A stretch of 64,000 bases of DNA. Origin: an uncultured Pelagibacteraceae bacterium. Lineage in GTDB: Bacteria; Pseudomonadota; Alphaproteobacteria; Pelagibacterales; Pelagibacteraceae. The position numbers were made by a program, and so were the translations under genes. The DNA is taken from NCBI GenBank assembly GCA_902538885.1, contig CACBGU010000003.1, positions 34,752-98,751 of the forward strand, written 5' to 3'. The notes beneath the pieces are model-generated. The model was not told where the DNA came from. It ran no database searches and saw only the letters and a program-made list of their open reading frames with translations. This document shows, piece after piece, positions 13,944 to 28,472 of this stretch (position 1 is the first letter of the stretch; every line of letters starts with the position of its first letter).

Positions 13944-14940
13944 TCTTAAAAAATTATGAAATAAATAAAATCAAATTAAATTCAAATCAACATTTATTGT
14001 TTTATGGAAATAATGAAGGTTTTAAAGATTAACACTGGAAATAATAAATAATTTAATTAAAAGTAAAAAATATATAAATAAATACGAAGAAAAGGAAGTT
14101 TTAACAAATCTTGAAAAATTTGTAGAAAATTTATTAAATAAATCACTTTTTGAGGATGAAAAAATAATTTTAATCAGAAGATCGACCGAAAAAATATTCA
14201 AAGTAATTGCGGAAATATTTGAAAAAAATTTGGATGGTGTGACAATTATAATTGAATCTGAAAATTTAGACAAAAAATCTAAACTTAGATCTTACTTTGA
14301 AAAAAGTAAAAGAGATATTGCTATGGCATTTTACCCAGACAACGAGCAAACTCTCGCAAGAATAGCTTATAACATTTTAAATACAAAAAAAATTTCAATT
14401 TCACCAAGCAACATAAATTTAATTGTTAATAAATGTGGTGGGGATAGAAAAAATTTAATTAATGAACTTGAAAAAATTGAATTTTACTCAAAAAGTGTAA
14501 AAAAAATAACTCAAGAAAATATAGCTAAATTGACCAATTTAAGCGAAAACCATAATATAGCAGAACTTATAGATAATTGTTTGGCAAAAAATAAAAGTAA
14601 AACAATTTACATATTAAATGAAAATAATTATACTAATGAGGATTGCATCCTAATATTAAGAACCTTCTTAAGCAAATCTAAAAAAATTCTTAAACTCTCA
14701 AATGAATACAAATTTAATAAAGATATAAATTTAACGATTTCATCAGCCAAACCTCCAATATTTTGGAAAGACAAAGAAATTATAAAAAAGCAATTAATGA
14801 ATTGGAGTCCCAGCAATATTAAAGAATTAATTTATAAACTAAATAATATTGAGCTGAATTTAAAAAAAAACATTAATAACTCTTTAAATTTAGTTTCAGA
14901 TTTTTTACTTGAGCAAGCGTCTTTAAGAACTAATAATTAG
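13940..14940 (+). CDS. holA: DNA polymerase III delta subunit, with apparent 1-base frameshift
   Basis: Clamp-loader delta subunit. The track shows only 14230-14940, which is the C-terminal part from an internal Met. A start overlapping the lptE stop (ATGA, 13940) opens a reading frame MILKNYEINKIKLN...LLFYGNNEGFKD that ends at TAA 14030-14032. The -1 frame is open from 14026 and continues as LEIINNLIKSKKYINKYEEKEVLTNLEKF into the tracked ORF. Adding one base near 14027-14032 joins both halves into about 333 aa, normal for HolA. LLFYGNNEG matches the typical N-terminal LLYGxDxG. The gene is expected to be essential, so a sequencing or assembly indel is the simplest explanation. The 3' end overlaps parB by 11 bases (convergent). 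Confidence 0.88.
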
Positions 14941-15772
14941 ATTTTATAATATCAATAATTTTATTTAATTGGTCTAAATCTTTATATTCAAAACTTATCG
15001 TACCTTTATTTCTTTTGTTATTTTTTATATCAACATTTAAACCAATCTTATTAGAAATAGATAATTCAAGAGCAGTGATATTTGTGTCTTTAGAAATTTT
15101 TGATTTTTGTTTTTTATTTTTAAATATTTTAACAAAATTTTCTGCTTGCCTAACAGACAGTTTCTTTTCAATAATTTTTGATGCTACAAAACTTGCATTT
15201 GTAAGACCGACCAAAACTTTTGCATGACCAGCAGTTAATTTTTGGGTTTCAATTAATTTGATTACATCATCTGGCAAAGTAAGTAGTCGCAAAGAATTAG
15301 TTATGTGGCTCCTGCTCTTTCCAATGAATTTTGACACTTTTTCTTGATCATAAGAAAATTCATCTATTAATCTTTTATATCCTTGTGCTTCTTCAAGAGG
15401 ATTTAGATCATGCCTTTGAACGTTTTCTACAATAGCAAATTCTAAAGATTTCAAGTCATCAGCTTCCGTTATAACAACAGGTACATTATGAAGGCCAGCT
15501 CTTTGTGCTGCTAACCATCTTCTCTCTCCAGCAATTATTTCAAACTTTGATCTATCATTATTTGAATTTCTAACGATTATAGGCTGTATCATTCCTCTTT
15601 CTTTAATTGAATTGGTTAGATCCTCTAAATTAGCTTCGTCAAATATTTTCCTTGGTTGATACTTATTTGGGACAAGATCACTAATTGATACTTGATTCTT
15701 TTGAGGTTCAATTTTTGTCTCACCAATCAGCGATGAAAGTCCTCTTCCTAATCCTTTTTTGATTTTATCCAT
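14930..15772 (-). CDS. parB: Chromosome partitioning protein ParB
   Basis: CTP-dependent clamp that loads at parS and helps segregate the origin region. 280 aa. N-terminal GLGRGLSSLIG (ParA-stimulating region), then the ParB/Srx domain with ISDLVPNKYQPRK and AGERRWLAAQRAG (GERRxxA, CTP binding), then the HTH FIGKSRSHITNSLRLL (about residues 138-153). The C-terminal dimerisation segment is short. Coupled to parA by a one-base overlap; a perfect parS lies 1.4 kb away in rsmG. Confidence 0.97.
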   Translation of the reverse strand: MDKIKKGLGRGLSSLIGETKIEPQKNQVSISDLVPNKYQPRKIFDEANLEDLTNSIKERGMIQPIIVRNSNNDRSKFEIIAGERRWLAAQRAGLHNVPVVITEADDLKSLEFAIVENVQRHDLNPLEEAQGYKRLIDEFSYDQEKVSKFIGKSRSHITNSLRLLTLPDDVIKLIETQKLTAGHAKVLVGLTNASFVASKIIEKKLSVRQAENFVKIFKNKKQKSKISKDTNITALELSISNKIGLNVDIKNNKRNKGTISFEYKDLDQLNKIIDIIKSNY

Positions 15773-16566
15773 TAAGCTGCACTTCCTATTGTTGACTCTT
15801 GATGAATAAATTCATCAGTGAAACTAAAGTAAGATTTGCTACCAGGACATGTTTTATCATAGATCAATACTGGCATTCCGTGTGATGGGGCTTCTGACAA
15901 TCTGACATTTCTTGGTATGACAGTTGAGTAAACTTTTTCACTAAAATAATCTCTAGCTTCTTTCTCAACTTGTGACGAAAGCTTATTTCTTTTATCATAC
16001 ATAGTTAAAAGTATGCCCCTGATTTTTAAATCTGGATTTAAACTTACTTTTATCCTTTCGATTGTTTTCATTAGCTGCGTTAAACCCTCTAAAGCAAAAA
16101 ATTCAGTCTGAAGTGGTACCAATAGTGATTTTGAGCTTACAAGTGCCATTACTGTCAATAAGCTTAATGAAGGTGGGCAATCGATCAAGACATAATCATA
16201 TAATCTTCTAGAATCATTTAAATATGCGGTTAATTTTGTCTTTAGTATAAAAGCCCTATTACTGTCATCAGCTGTCTCAACTTCTAAGCCCGATAAATCT
16301 ACATTAGATGTTATAACATCTAAATTTTCAAACTGTGTTTTTTTGATCACGTCACTAATTTCTCTAGTTCCATTCAAAACTCCATAAATTGTATCACTTG
16401 AGTTATCCATATTAGATAATCCTAGACCTGTGGTAGCATTACCTTGTGGATCTAGGTCAATTACTAAAATTTTTTTATCTATTTGAGATAAACCTGCTGC
16501 AAGATTTATCACCGTAGTAGTTTTTCCAACCCCACCCTTTTGATTTATTACTGAAATAATTTGCAT
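15772..16566 (-). CDS. parA: Chromosome partitioning ATPase ParA (Soj)
   Basis: 264 aa. Deviant Walker A NQKGGVGKTTTVINLAAGL at the N-terminus, Walker A' LVIDLDPQGNATTGLG and Walker B YVLIDCPPSLSLL. It forms ATP-dependent DNA-bound gradients that move ParB-parS complexes. Lies directly between rsmG and parB, in the same order as in Caulobacter and most Alphaproteobacteria. Confidence 0.97.
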   Translation of the reverse strand: MQIISVINQKGGVGKTTTVINLAAGLSQIDKKILVIDLDPQGNATTGLGLSNMDNSSDTIYGVLNGTREISDVIKKTQFENLDVITSNVDLSGLEVETADDSNRAFILKTKLTAYLNDSRRLYDYVLIDCPPSLSLLTVMALVSSKSLLVPLQTEFFALEGLTQLMKTIERIKVSLNPDLKIRGILLTMYDKRNKLSSQVEKEARDYFSEKVYSTVIPRNVRLSEAPSHGMPVLIYDKTCPGSKSYFSFTDEFIHQESTIGSAA

Positions 16567-17211
16567 TTAATTTTTTTTTTTAATTTTTTTAATATTTATT
16601 AAAAATGAGTCTTCACTTGTTAAACTTTTTTTTTCTATATACTCCAACTCCCAATTTTTTTTGGAATTTTCAAAAATTTTTTTTCCACTCTTCCCCATAA
16701 AAAAAATTAAATTTTTATATTTTGAAAAATTTTCATATACTAATTCTAAAACTACTGGCATTGGTTTAAATGCTCTGGACATTATCGTTCCTGTTTCTAA
16801 ATTTTTTATTTCAAAAATATTTTTTTGAAAAACCTTTGTGTTTAAATTTAATTTTTTTGAAACTTCCTTTAAAAAATGGCTTTTATGGTAACTTTTTTCA
16901 TAAAGGTGTACATTCATATTATTTTTCATATTTTTTAGTATAATTGCCACGATTATACCTGGCATACCCCCTCCTGAACCTATATCTGTGGTTGTATTGC
17001 TATTTAAGTCAACAAAATCAATTATTTGTGCAGAATCTATAATATGACGCTCAATTATAGCCTTTTTTGATGCTGTATTTTGGCTAATTATGTTGATTTT
17101 TTTATTTTTTTCAAGAATCATAGATATATAGTTTTCAAAGTCCAAAAATGTTTCACGTGAAACATTTAAGTGATTGATTCTTGAATAAGAATTTAAAATT
17201 TCCTGATCCAT
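16567..17211 (-). CDS. rsmG: 16S rRNA (guanine-527-N7)-methyltransferase RsmG
   Basis: 214-aa SAM-dependent methyltransferase (GidB). SAM-binding motif TDIGSGGGMPGIIVAI (about residues 75-90); MSRAFKPMP is the conserved downstream element. The N-terminus contains NVSRETF, whose codons are the exact parS palindrome. It overlaps the mnmG stop by one base and is followed at once by parA. Cytosolic. Confidence 0.95.
   Translation of the reverse strand: MDQEILNSYSRINHLNVSRETFLDFENYISMILEKNKKINIISQNTASKKAIIERHIIDSAQIIDFVDLNSNTTTDIGSGGGMPGIIVAIILKNMKNNMNVHLYEKSYHKSHFLKEVSKKLNLNTKVFQKNIFEIKNLETGTIMSRAFKPMPVVLELVYENFSKYKNLIFFMGKSGKKIFENSKKNWELEYIEKKSLTSEDSFLINIKKIKKKN
17149..17164. promoter_or_regulatory. 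parS centromere site (perfect 16-bp palindrome)
   Basis: TGTTTCACGTGAAACA, identical to the universal bacterial parS consensus. It lies within the 5' part of rsmG (encoding NVSRET), 1.4 kb upstream of parB and about 7.2 kb from the putative oriC, as expected for an origin-proximal centromere. Confidence 0.95.
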
Positions 17212-22364: not shown

Positions 22365-23360
22365 TTAGATATTTCTTTCAATTAAGGATTTTAATAAAAT
22401 TATATGATCACTATTATCATTTAAACACGAGACCATATCAAAATTTTCTCCTCCTGAATTTAAAAAAATTTCTTTAGCTTGAATTTGTATTTCCTCTAAA
22501 GTCTCTACACAATCAGATGCAAACCCTGGACAAATTGTAAGCACATTTTTAGCACCCTCTTTAGGTAAATTTTCTAAAGTCTTGTCAGTATATGGTTGAA
22601 GCCATTCTTGTGGGCCAAATCTTGACTGAAATGTAGTTTTAATTTTAACTGAACTAAATTTTTCCGAAATTAGTCTTGTCGTTTTGTGACAGTAACAATG
22701 ATAAGGATCACCTTTATCAAAATATTTTTTTGGTATCCCATGATAAGAAGCTATCATTAGATCTGGTTTCCAACTGATTTCATTTATTTTTTTATTAATC
22801 GAATTCACAAGTGCATCAATATAAAGTGGGTCAGATTCGTAATGAGGGATTATTTTTAAAGAGGGTTGCCACCTCATTTTCATTAAAGTTCTGTATACCT
22901 CATCGCAAACTGTTGCTGTTGTAGCTGCTGCATATTGGGGATAAAGAGGAAGTATCACCAAATTTTCGCAACCCATTTTATGCAATTTATGAATTTTGCT
23001 TTTGATGCTCGGATTTCCATATCTCATGGCAAAATCTATGATGATATTTTCTTTTGATAGTAAATTTGAAATTTTCTCACTTTGCTTTTTTGTATAATAA
23101 AGAAGTGGCGATATATTTTCGTCCTTCATCCAAATCTCTTTATAAGCTTTAGCGGTTTTAGAGGGTCTAAAATTTAAAATGAACAAATTCAAAATTATTT
23201 GCCAAACTAAAGGATTTACCTCAATTACTCTTCTGTCAGAGAGAAATTCTTTTAAATATTTTCTTATATCAAACCAATTAGTAGAATCAGGTGTACCTAA
23301 ATTAACGATAAGTACTCCTGTGTTACCGTATTTTATGGGTGGGTGATTTTTTTCAATCAT
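22365..23360 (-). CDS. hemH: Ferrochelatase
   Basis: 331 aa; inserts ferrous iron into protoporphyrin IX, the last step of haem synthesis. GVLIVNLGTPDS at the N-terminus (about residues 15-26), SYHGIPKKYFDKGDPYHCYC with the catalytic-region His (about 207-226), TFQSRFGPQEWLQP and CPGFASDCVETLEEI with the conserved His-replacing/Glu residues. Its start overlaps hemE by 4 bases (ATGA). Confidence 0.96.
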   Translation of the reverse strand: MIEKNHPPIKYGNTGVLIVNLGTPDSTNWFDIRKYLKEFLSDRRVIEVNPLVWQIILNLFILNFRPSKTAKAYKEIWMKDENISPLLYYTKKQSEKISNLLSKENIIIDFAMRYGNPSIKSKIHKLHKMGCENLVILPLYPQYAAATTATVCDEVYRTLMKMRWQPSLKIIPHYESDPLYIDALVNSINKKINEISWKPDLMIASYHGIPKKYFDKGDPYHCYCHKTTRLISEKFSSVKIKTTFQSRFGPQEWLQPYTDKTLENLPKEGAKNVLTICPGFASDCVETLEEIQIQAKEIFLNSGGENFDMVSCLNDNSDHIILLKSLIERNI

Positions 23361-24361
23361 TTAAAATCTTTTACAATTTGAATTAAATTTTCAACCATTT
23401 CTGGATTTGTTTCAGGCAAAATACCATGACCGAGATTAAATATATACGGGTGATCTCGAAAAATTTCTAAATAATTAAAGGCTTCTTTTTTTAATGTTTC
23501 TTTATCTGTTAACAAAATTTTTGGGTCTAATCCTCCTTGTATGGGTATACTTATATCTCTAAGTATTTTTTTTGGATCAACATTGTAATCGATACTAACA
23601 GCATCAGGTTTGACAATATCACAAAACTCTTTATAATTTTTGATTTCTCTGGGAAAACATATAACTGGCACATTCAAAGATTTTACATAATTTACTAAAT
23701 TTAAAGTCGGAGAATAAACATAATTGGGTAAATCTTTTTCCTCTAATAAACCTGCCCAACTATCAAAAATTTGAATTACATTCGCACCGTTGTCAATTTG
23801 ATTTTTTATATGAACTTTTAAAAATTTTTCAATAATTAATAATATTCTGTTTATTAAAAACTCATCTTTAAAAAAATCTTTTTTCAAATTTTTTTTAGGT
23901 GATTGTTGATTAATCATATAAACTAGTAATGTCCATGGAGCACCGACAAATCCAATAGTATTTTTATTTTTTAAACTAAAGTCTGAGCTAACCTTTTTTA
24001 ATGCTTTGTACACGCGATGTATCTTTTCTACAAAGTCAATTTCATCAGTTTTAGCAATTTCATTTAGATTTAGTTCCCCTAATTTTGGCCCAAAATTTTT
24101 TTTAAATTCTACTTTTTGACCCAATCCATAAGGAAGCATTAAGATATCTGAAAATATTATTGCAGCATCTAGATCAAATCTTTTTAATGGTTGTAGAGTT
24201 ATTTCTGAAGACAAATCATCATTTAAACATAAATTAATAAAATTAGGATTTTCTTTTCTTATTTCTCTAAATTCTGGTAAATATCTACCAGCCTGTCTCA
24301 TAATCCATATAGGATTGAACGAAGTATCTTTGTTAATTATTACTTTGTTTAAAGGCTTCAT
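23357..24361 (-). CDS. hemE: Uroporphyrinogen decarboxylase
   Basis: 334 aa; removes four acetate carboxyls from uroporphyrinogen III. The N-terminal family signature is PIWIMRQAGRYLPEFRE (about residues 18-34), the second is GFVGAPWTLLVYM, and FNLGHGILPETNPE is near the C-terminus. First gene of the leftward hem-rho cluster. Its upstream region is the putative replication origin, matching the hemE-adjacent oriC of Caulobacter and Rickettsia. Confidence 0.97.
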   Translation of the reverse strand: MKPLNKVIINKDTSFNPIWIMRQAGRYLPEFREIRKENPNFINLCLNDDLSSEITLQPLKRFDLDAAIIFSDILMLPYGLGQKVEFKKNFGPKLGELNLNEIAKTDEIDFVEKIHRVYKALKKVSSDFSLKNKNTIGFVGAPWTLLVYMINQQSPKKNLKKDFFKDEFLINRILLIIEKFLKVHIKNQIDNGANVIQIFDSWAGLLEEKDLPNYVYSPTLNLVNYVKSLNVPVICFPREIKNYKEFCDIVKPDAVSIDYNVDPKKILRDISIPIQGGLDPKILLTDKETLKKEAFNYLEIFRDHPYIFNLGHGILPETNPEMVENLIQIVKDFK

Positions 24362-24399
24362 AAATAAGTATTATTAATTATTGTAGTTGTAATATATCT

Positions 24400-24408
24400 T
24401 GTGAATAA
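24400..24408 (-). promoter_or_regulatory. DnaA box
   Basis: Plus strand TGTGAATAA, which on the minus strand is TTATTCACA, an exact match to the TTATNCACA consensus, within the putative oriC. Confidence 0.65.
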
Positions 24409-24432
24409 AGGTGATTAATTTTTATAAACATT

Positions 24433-24441
24433 ATATTCACA
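24433..24441 (+). promoter_or_regulatory. Possible DnaA box
   Basis: ATATTCACA on the plus strand, one mismatch to TTATNCACA, 24 bases after the consensus box and in inverted orientation. Confidence 0.45.
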
Positions 24442-24627
24442 ATTTACCAACAAGTTATTTAAATAAAATTGTTTAAAATGAAGCTTTTTAACCATATTAA
24501 TTTTTGTGGATTGTTTTACCCTATTTATTATTAATGTTAATAAATAGTAGTTTTTACAAGGTTAATTTAAAAAATTTTAAATTGTGTAATTTGATAAAAA
24601 TATTACAAATTTATTAACAATTTATTC

Positions 24628-25455
24628 ATGAGTAATACATATCAAATATATTTAATTTCTGATTCAACAGGCGAGACTTTAGATAGAATATTTTTAGCCC
24701 TGAAAGCTCAATTTTTAAATATAGAATATAAGGTTCATTCTTACTCTTTTACAAGGACAGAAAATCAAATTTTAAAAATTCTAGAGGATGCAAAAAAAAA
24801 TGAAAATTCAATAATCTTGTATACAATCGTGGATAACAATTTAGCCAAATATCTTGCGAACGCGAGCGAAGATAAAAACATTCCATGTTTTGGCGTTTTA
24901 GGAAATTTAATTCTGAATTTTTCAAAAATATTAAATCAAAAAGCAACACATGAGCCAAGTGGTCAACATATGTTGAATGAAGAATATTATGACAGAATTG
25001 AAGCAATTCAATTTACAATGAATCATGATGATGGAAATTTAATAAACGAGGTAAACAAATCTGATATTATTCTTGTAGGCGTAAGTAGAACAAGTAAAAC
25101 ACCAACATCTATTTACTTAGCTAACAAAGGTTTTAAAACGTCAAACATTCCGTTAGTAAATGAAAATTCTTTGCCAGAGTCCCTTAAAAAAAATCCAAAA
25201 ATGACTTGTGTTGTTGGATTAAGCACAGAGCCAGAAAGGTTGGTTGATTTAAGAAAAAATAGAATGACTTCTTTAAAAGAAACAGAAAACATTCAATACA
25301 CAGATTTAGAAAATATAAAAAAAGAGGTGTTAGAGGCGAAAAAAACATTTCAAAAATATAAATGGCCGCTTATAGATGTAACGAGAAAGTCTGTTGAAGA
25401 AACAGCCGCTTCCATAATTAAAATTCGCGAAATATATTTAAACAATGCTAAATAA
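24628..25455 (+). CDS. Pyruvate,phosphate dikinase / PEP synthase regulatory protein (DUF299)
   Basis: 275 aa bifunctional kinase/pyrophosphorylase family that switches PPDK or PEP synthase by ADP-dependent phosphorylation and Pi-dependent dephosphorylation. N-terminal YLISDSTGETLDRI (about residues 8-21), P-loop GVSRTSKTPTSIYLA (about 151-165) and the C-terminal VTRKSVEETAASI are family signatures. It is the counterpart of the Caulobacter CC_0001/Rickettsia RP001 gene bordering oriC. Whether PPDK or PpsA is the target cannot be read here. Overlaps maf by 11 bases. Confidence 0.93.
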   Translation: MSNTYQIYLISDSTGETLDRIFLALKAQFLNIEYKVHSYSFTRTENQILKILEDAKKNENSIILYTIVDNNLAKYLANASEDKNIPCFGVLGNLILNFSKILNQKATHEPSGQHMLNEEYYDRIEAIQFTMNHDDGNLINEVNKSDIILVGVSRTSKTPTSIYLANKGFKTSNIPLVNENSLPESLKKNPKMTCVVGLSTEPERLVDLRKNRMTSLKETENIQYTDLENIKKEVLEAKKTFQKYKWPLIDVTRKSVEETAASIIKIREIYLNNAK

Positions 25456-28047: not shown

Positions 28048-28472
28048 TTAAATTTTTGTTTATATAATTCTTCAAAATTTACTTTTTTTTCAAATTTTAT
28101 TCCTGGGTATCCTGAATTATGCAAAAGATCTAAGAGAGACTTCTCTAAATTTGGATATATTTCATTTTGAACATCAACTAATATGATTTTTTCTAATTCT
28201 TTTCTCTCTTTTATTTCGTCATTTACTCGAATTACTGTTGAATACAAAATTTCAAAATATGATTTTTTTTCGTTATTCTCTTTGTCAAGAAATTTAAATG
28301 TTGTAAAAATTTCTATCATTTTATTTTTTAATGCTTTTGATGTTATATCAATATCAAGCTGATATGATGAAATACGATCTCTAACAAATAAATATGTTTC
28401 TATATCTTTTGTTTCACTTGAAAGATCTTTTATATATTTACCTAGTATTTTATATTTTTCTGTCATTGTCAT
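28044..28472 (-). CDS. secB: Protein-export chaperone SecB
   Basis: 142 aa tetrameric cytosolic chaperone that keeps precursors unfolded for SecA. YIKDLSSETKD (about residues 13-23) matches the family start, and the C-terminal NSGYPGIKFEKKVNFEELYKQK corresponds to the G-x-P-x-x-L/F...DF-x-x-LY-x-x end of SecB. Identity elsewhere is weak. The position between dnaQ and fxsA/tim44 is the conserved alphaproteobacterial place for secB. Its start overlaps the fxsA end by 23 bases; the second ATG (28466) is an alternative start. Confidence 0.85.
   Translation of the reverse strand: MTMTEKYKILGKYIKDLSSETKDIETYLFVRDRISSYQLDIDITSKALKNKMIEIFTTFKFLDKENNEKKSYFEILYSTVIRVNDEIKERKELEKIILVDVQNEIYPNLEKSLLDLLHNSGYPGIKFEKKVNFEELYKQKFN
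28410..28425. promoter_or_regulatory. Degenerate parS-like sequence in secB
   Basis: TGTTTCACTTGAAAGA, 14 of 16 positions matching parS, with the central CG changed to CT and position 15 changed. It lies about 3.8 kb right of the putative oriC. Loss of the central CpG makes strong ParB binding doubtful. Confidence 0.3.

Follow-up and report, generated by a model that had tools for sequence, protein, structure and literature searches.

In Caulobacter crescentus, the origin Cori is an AT-rich gap with DnaA boxes, flanked by hemE and the COG1806 (DUF299) gene; CtrA has five sites in it and IHF one, and the origin of Rickettsia prowazekii lies between the same pair of genes (PMC1914354). Some origins of this alphaproteobacterial class are reported to lack CtrA sites, which are therefore not obligatory for it, and the ori of Wolbachia kept one ancestral neighbor after rearrangement, hemE without DUF299 (PMC1914354). 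A basal origin-unwinding system (BUS) has been described in Bacillus subtilis and other bacteria as a DnaA box, a short spacer, and 3'-GAT-5' triplets on the 5' tail strand; the trio signal of Escherichia coli is weak (PMC8287927).

SAR11 is among the most abundant groups of ocean bacteria, and origin-to-terminus coverage is used to estimate marine growth rates. A V-shaped coverage profile with one origin is reported for SAR11 (PMC9589681), and at least one recent study began its SAR11 alignments at DnaA (PMC12421898). The accessible portions of the open literature yielded no statement of where the SAR11 oriC lies, and prediction databases such as DoriC may well list a position.

A sequence-only reading of a 64-kb stretch of DNA (the window) had proposed that the gap between hemE and the DUF299 gene is the oriC of a SAR11-like genome, and had named GC skew and alignment among relatives as checks. 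The DUF299 protein is 91 to 97% identical to its closest named records, which come from uncultured Pelagibacteraceae, and the genome is thus SAR11. The gap is almost certainly its chromosomal replication origin, with origin activity predicted from the features collected in Table 1. Because the same gene pair flanks the origins of Caulobacter and Rickettsia, as the earlier reading correctly stated, the gap belongs to a known kind, and it is a compact but ordinary addition to the hemE-linked alphaproteobacterial type. An oriC placed here, about 63 to 66 kb from dnaA in the two relatives tested, would provide a fixed anchor for coverage estimates and genome rotation, and a compact alphaproteobacterial origin in which to test how little control a free-living cell needs.

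Table 1. Coordinates of the predicted origin and associated features in the window
Feature	Position	Strand	Remarks
Predicted oriC element, hemE-DUF299 intergenic	24362..24627	.	266 bp; backed by synteny, clustered DnaA boxes, the skew flip of relatives, and persistence despite flank change
hemE (URO-D), left flank	23357..24361	-	PF01208, E 2.1e-84
DUF299 (Kinase-PPPase) gene, right flank	24628..25455	+	PF03618, E 1.6e-89
Putative DNA-unwinding side with DnaA-trios	24362..24395	+	TAN triplets in register across 30 genomes of the genus; several family f2 members have (TAG)3-4
Window trios TAG-TTG-TAA-TAT	24384..24395	+	TAG 24384-24386, TAA 24390-24392, TAT 24393-24395; in-frame TTG at 24381 and 24387
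Spacer, trios to box	24396..24399	+	4 bp, from alignment; ATCT here, xxCC in most of family f2
Main DnaA box TTATTCACA (TGTGAATAA on +)	24400..24408	-	Faces the trios; no other exact box in the window; top 9-mer of the gap in conservation
DnaA-like box TTATAAACA, array unit 1	24422..24430	+	At most one mismatch; 11-bp phase
DnaA-like box ATATTCACA, array unit 2	24433..24441	+	At most one mismatch; 11-bp phase
Weak DnaA-like box TTACCAACA, array unit 3	24444..24452	+	Two mismatches; exact 11-bp phase
Weak DnaA-like box CAATCCACA	24505..24513	-	Two mismatches
DnaA-like box TTATTAACA	24535..24543	-	At most one mismatch
Right-end DnaA-like box TTATTAACA	24611..24619	+	Conserved genus-wide and in sister genus G143
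Perfect palindromic parS TGTTTCACGTGAAACA	17149..17164	.	Inside rsmG; 7.2 kb from the gap
parA	15772..16566		Beside parS
parB	14930..15772		Beside parS

Both flanking genes are identified by their Pfam families, which places the gap between hemE and COG1806/DUF299 as in the hemE-linked origins. To the left of hemE follow hemH, hemJ, rho, mnmE, mnmG, rsmG, parA, and parB, and to the right of the DUF299 gene maf, aroE, coaE, and dnaQ (hemJ, rho, mnmE, mnmG, coaE, and dnaQ were named from their sequences). With open reading frames of at least 60 aa kept, the gap is the longest noncoding stretch of the window, as had been claimed, and gene polarity does switch at it, but many further switches occur elsewhere in the window. 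It had also been called very AT-rich. Its GC content of 15.8%, against 20 to 36% in 2-kb stretches of the window, does give the above-average AT content of a hemE-linked origin, but other 266-bp stretches reach 13.2% GC, and its duplex stability ranges by position from about the 61st to the 98th percentile of the window. Since other stretches match the gap in both respects, AT-richness and duplex stability were dropped as evidence. No Rfam family matched in the gap region.

The DnaA boxes set the gap apart. Its exact TTATNCACA is the only one in 64 kb, and four further 9-mers in the gap come within one mismatch (24422 and 24433 on the plus strand, 24535 on the minus strand, and 24611 on the plus strand). 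These five boxes compare with 0.86 expected from dinucleotide shuffles of the gap (P = 0.0015). The sequence-only reading was right about the exact box but undercounted in listing three, and its description of the boxes as fewer and weaker than usual should be revised: the gap has at least five, ordered in part as an 11-bp array, with a genus consensus of TTAT[T/A][A/C]ACA and with trios that had gone unseen. Across 30 same-genus gaps, 132 boxes with at most one mismatch were found against 26 in shuffled sequence, and 24 exact boxes against 1.1, although shuffle statistics overstate independence because the sequences are related to each other; reversing the same gaps left 31 boxes with at most one mismatch and no exact box. 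Over the whole window, exact boxes are rarer than chance predicts (1 against 3.9), and therefore only their clustering counts. The cluster score per 266 bp is 7 in the gap and at best 3 elsewhere in the window. In the complete same-genus relative G012, the homologous gap is likewise the top cluster (score 9, with the next at 6 in 800 kb sampled), and among the 54 exact boxes of that whole genome the sole pair less than 260 bp apart sits in the gap. The dominant same-strand spacings in the genus are 11 and 22 bp, and TTATTCATG lies at +11 bp after the right-end box at 24611, overlapping the start codon of the DUF299 gene. Domain IV of DnaA carries the usual RDHTT signature.

In the oriC of E. 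coli, the unwinding side lies to the left of the TGTGNATAA box R1, an opposite-facing box, R4, occupies the far end, and weaker boxes lie between. The gap resembles this plan in having its putative unwinding side to the left of an TGTGNATAA box, an inverted box at the far end, and weaker boxes between, but it differs in its unrelated flanking genes and in showing no IHF site by consensus.

The 11-bp repeats could also be read as CtrA sites (TTAA-N7-TTAA) instead of DnaA boxes, which would make the gap a CtrA-controlled origin. The 30 genus gaps do contain 40 copies of this motif, whereas shuffled sequence has 17 ± 7. Yet an 11-bp array of TTATTAACA boxes yields TTAA-N7-TTAA automatically, the units ATATTCACA and TTATAAACA retain ACA rather than TTAA, and the window's own gap contains no full CtrA site at all. 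The genus-wide excess may be a by-product of the box array, and we consider it unlikely that the repeats are CtrA sites. The 266-bp gap differs from Cori in this respect and in two others. It has no strict IHF consensus, by a consensus scan that a diverged site could escape (3 matches genus-wide against 2.5 shuffled), and it has no GANTC, which occurs 4 times genus-wide against 9.7. SAR11 appears to be treated as exceptional regarding the CcrM methylase (PMC3973325). GcrA is encoded in five of the six genomes tested, the source genome among them.

We aligned the gap at 110 loci with both flanks read, own copies included; its length varies from 261 to 284 bp among the same-genus loci measured. 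The alignment check supported the earlier proposal, in that the boxes are conserved and the exact box TGTGAATAA is the top 9-mer of the gap, at 99.9% over 82 close sequences. Overall conservation is 0.92, against 0.76 to 0.81 at third codon positions, but control intergenic gaps of the same genomes are equally conserved (0.895 to 0.957). Overall conservation was therefore dropped as evidence, and the motif pattern alone is informative. The equality also fits a rival explanation, in which the gap is only a double promoter for hemE and the DUF299 gene, divergent genes that need promoters, and its DnaA boxes are regulatory or due to chance.

Exchanges of the neighboring genes bear directly on this promoter explanation. 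The element is flanked by hemE and DUF299 in the genus of the window, by hemE and maf in another family (f2), and by rho and DUF299 in a sister genus. The DUF299 gene was not found in any of the 24 genomes of family f2 (G037 to G060); maf takes its place beside the origin in all 12 loci read, and the hemE-maf gap, at 271 to 281 bp, keeps trios and boxes. In the sister genus G143, hemE, hemH, and hemJ form a block about 580 kb distant, and the gap, about 353 bp long, lies between rho and DUF299. It retains TAT-TAG-GTCA-TGTTTATAATGG and, at the start of DUF299, the two end boxes, TTATAAACA and TTATGAACA. Retention under both flank swaps makes the element independent of either flanking gene and more than a promoter gap; the double promoter, which also offers no account of the box enrichment or of the skew flips described below, is very improbable. 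As in Wolbachia, the rearranged origins keep one ancestral neighbor, but unlike Wolbachia the SAR11 relatives show both partner swaps, maf for DUF299 and rho for hemE. Among hemE loci across the class, 16 of the 29 read face DUF299 and several others face maf, with DnaA boxes between in most. The hemE of G143 is very divergent, at 30% identity.

Because the source assembly is fragmented (41 contigs) and 74% complete, strand skew was assessed in relatives, from sampled stretches of G012 and of G037, a member of family f2, at 20-kb resolution. In G012 (1,343,202 bp), where the homologous gap occupies positions 1,261,949 to 1,262,209, two-switch fits locate the origin at 1225 to 1245 kb when based on GC skew, AT skew, or gene strand, and at 1250 to 1265 kb when based on T/A skew at 4-fold sites. 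At these sites T exceeds A in eight consecutive sampled stretches to the left of the gap and A exceeds T in eleven to the right. Four measures thus place the switch within 0 to 37 kb of the gap, in agreement with the proposed SAR11 origin; 4-fold GC skew dissents with a switch at 1055 to 1145 kb, so that the skew measures of G012 do not all agree. To the left of the hemE-maf gap of G037, 9 of 10 stretches have a positive 4-fold GC skew; to the right, all 10 have a negative one. Two families therefore show a flip of neutral-site skew at the homologous gap.

These data also bear on whether the true origin lies elsewhere, near dnaA or the raw skew minimum, with the gap serving to titrate DnaA or persisting as a relic. 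At 20-kb resolution, raw GC skew and gene strand in G012 switch 17 to 37 kb to the left of the gap, its raw cumulative skew minimum, without mean removal, falls at 1305 kb, and dnaA lies about 63 to 66 kb from the gap in the two complete or near-complete relatives tested (G012:C1:1198936; G037:C1:489333). But dnaA is found on opposite sides of the gap in these two genomes (hemE side in G012, maf side in G037), without following the skew flip, and therefore marks the SAR11 origin poorly. No comparable DnaA-box cluster turned up in the 800 kb of G012 that were sampled, and trios mark an unwinding site rather than a titration site. An origin outside the gap is accordingly hardly credible. As a separate observation, the stretches sampled along the arms of G012 and G037 tend to have a 4-fold GC skew of the opposite sign to that of the whole sequence, with a leading strand that tends to be rich in C at 4-fold sites; this mutational pattern is unusual.

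Beside the most conserved box, the gap has a layout that matches the basal origin-unwinding system, with a putative function in opening the duplex: a box, a 4-bp spacer, and, on the TGTG-reading strand, TAN triplets that lead away from the box. With this spacer, the 30 genus genomes carry a mean of 3.27 TAN triplets out of 5, against 0.23 to 0.63 in the neighboring frames and at most 1.3 in any other frame. BUS is defined by at least three in-register NAN triplets within 16 bp of a DnaA box, and the genus-wide mean agrees with this definition. The window itself is a weak example, with TAG, TAA, and TAT and one break; its imperfect trios are interrupted, unlike those of BUS, and the spacer in its genus is not GC-rich. 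Several members of family f2 carry TAG-TAG-TAG-(TAG)-TTG-NNCC ahead of TGTG.

From this anatomy we infer a plausible course of initiation. DnaA would bind the invariant box (24400-24408) and the plus-strand array phased at 11 bp (24422/24433/24444), which would stabilize the complex, and the boxes at 24535 (minus strand) and 24611 (plus strand) would form its other half. A DnaA filament starting at the main box would then grow leftwards over the plus-strand TAN triplets and open the AT-rich stretch 24362-24399, where the helicase may load. Next, ParB at the single parS, 7 kb from the gap, would capture the nascent origin. It is possible, though we hold the idea only tentatively, that SAR11 origins in general are streamlined alphaproteobacterial origins run by DnaA alone. 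They would combine a box-plus-trio module with relaxed boxes (TTAT[T/A][A/C]ACA) arrayed every 11 bp and with one parS. Control by IHF, CcrM, and possibly CtrA would have been shed, and the module would persist while its neighbors swap.

Many bacteria carry several parS sites. The candidate partition site of the window is the only parS, allowing up to one mismatch, in the 74% complete source assembly. Of the 13 genomes tested, 12 have exactly one parS when one mismatch is tolerated, always near the oriC locus at about 7 to 11 kb; the one parS of the sister genus G143 lies 19.5 kb from its origin gap. A single perfect parS per genome, inside rsmG and adjoining parA-parB, was observed in both SAR11 families tested. 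A parS-like site with two mismatches lies at 28410-28425, on the opposite side of the predicted oriC, and few relatives have it.
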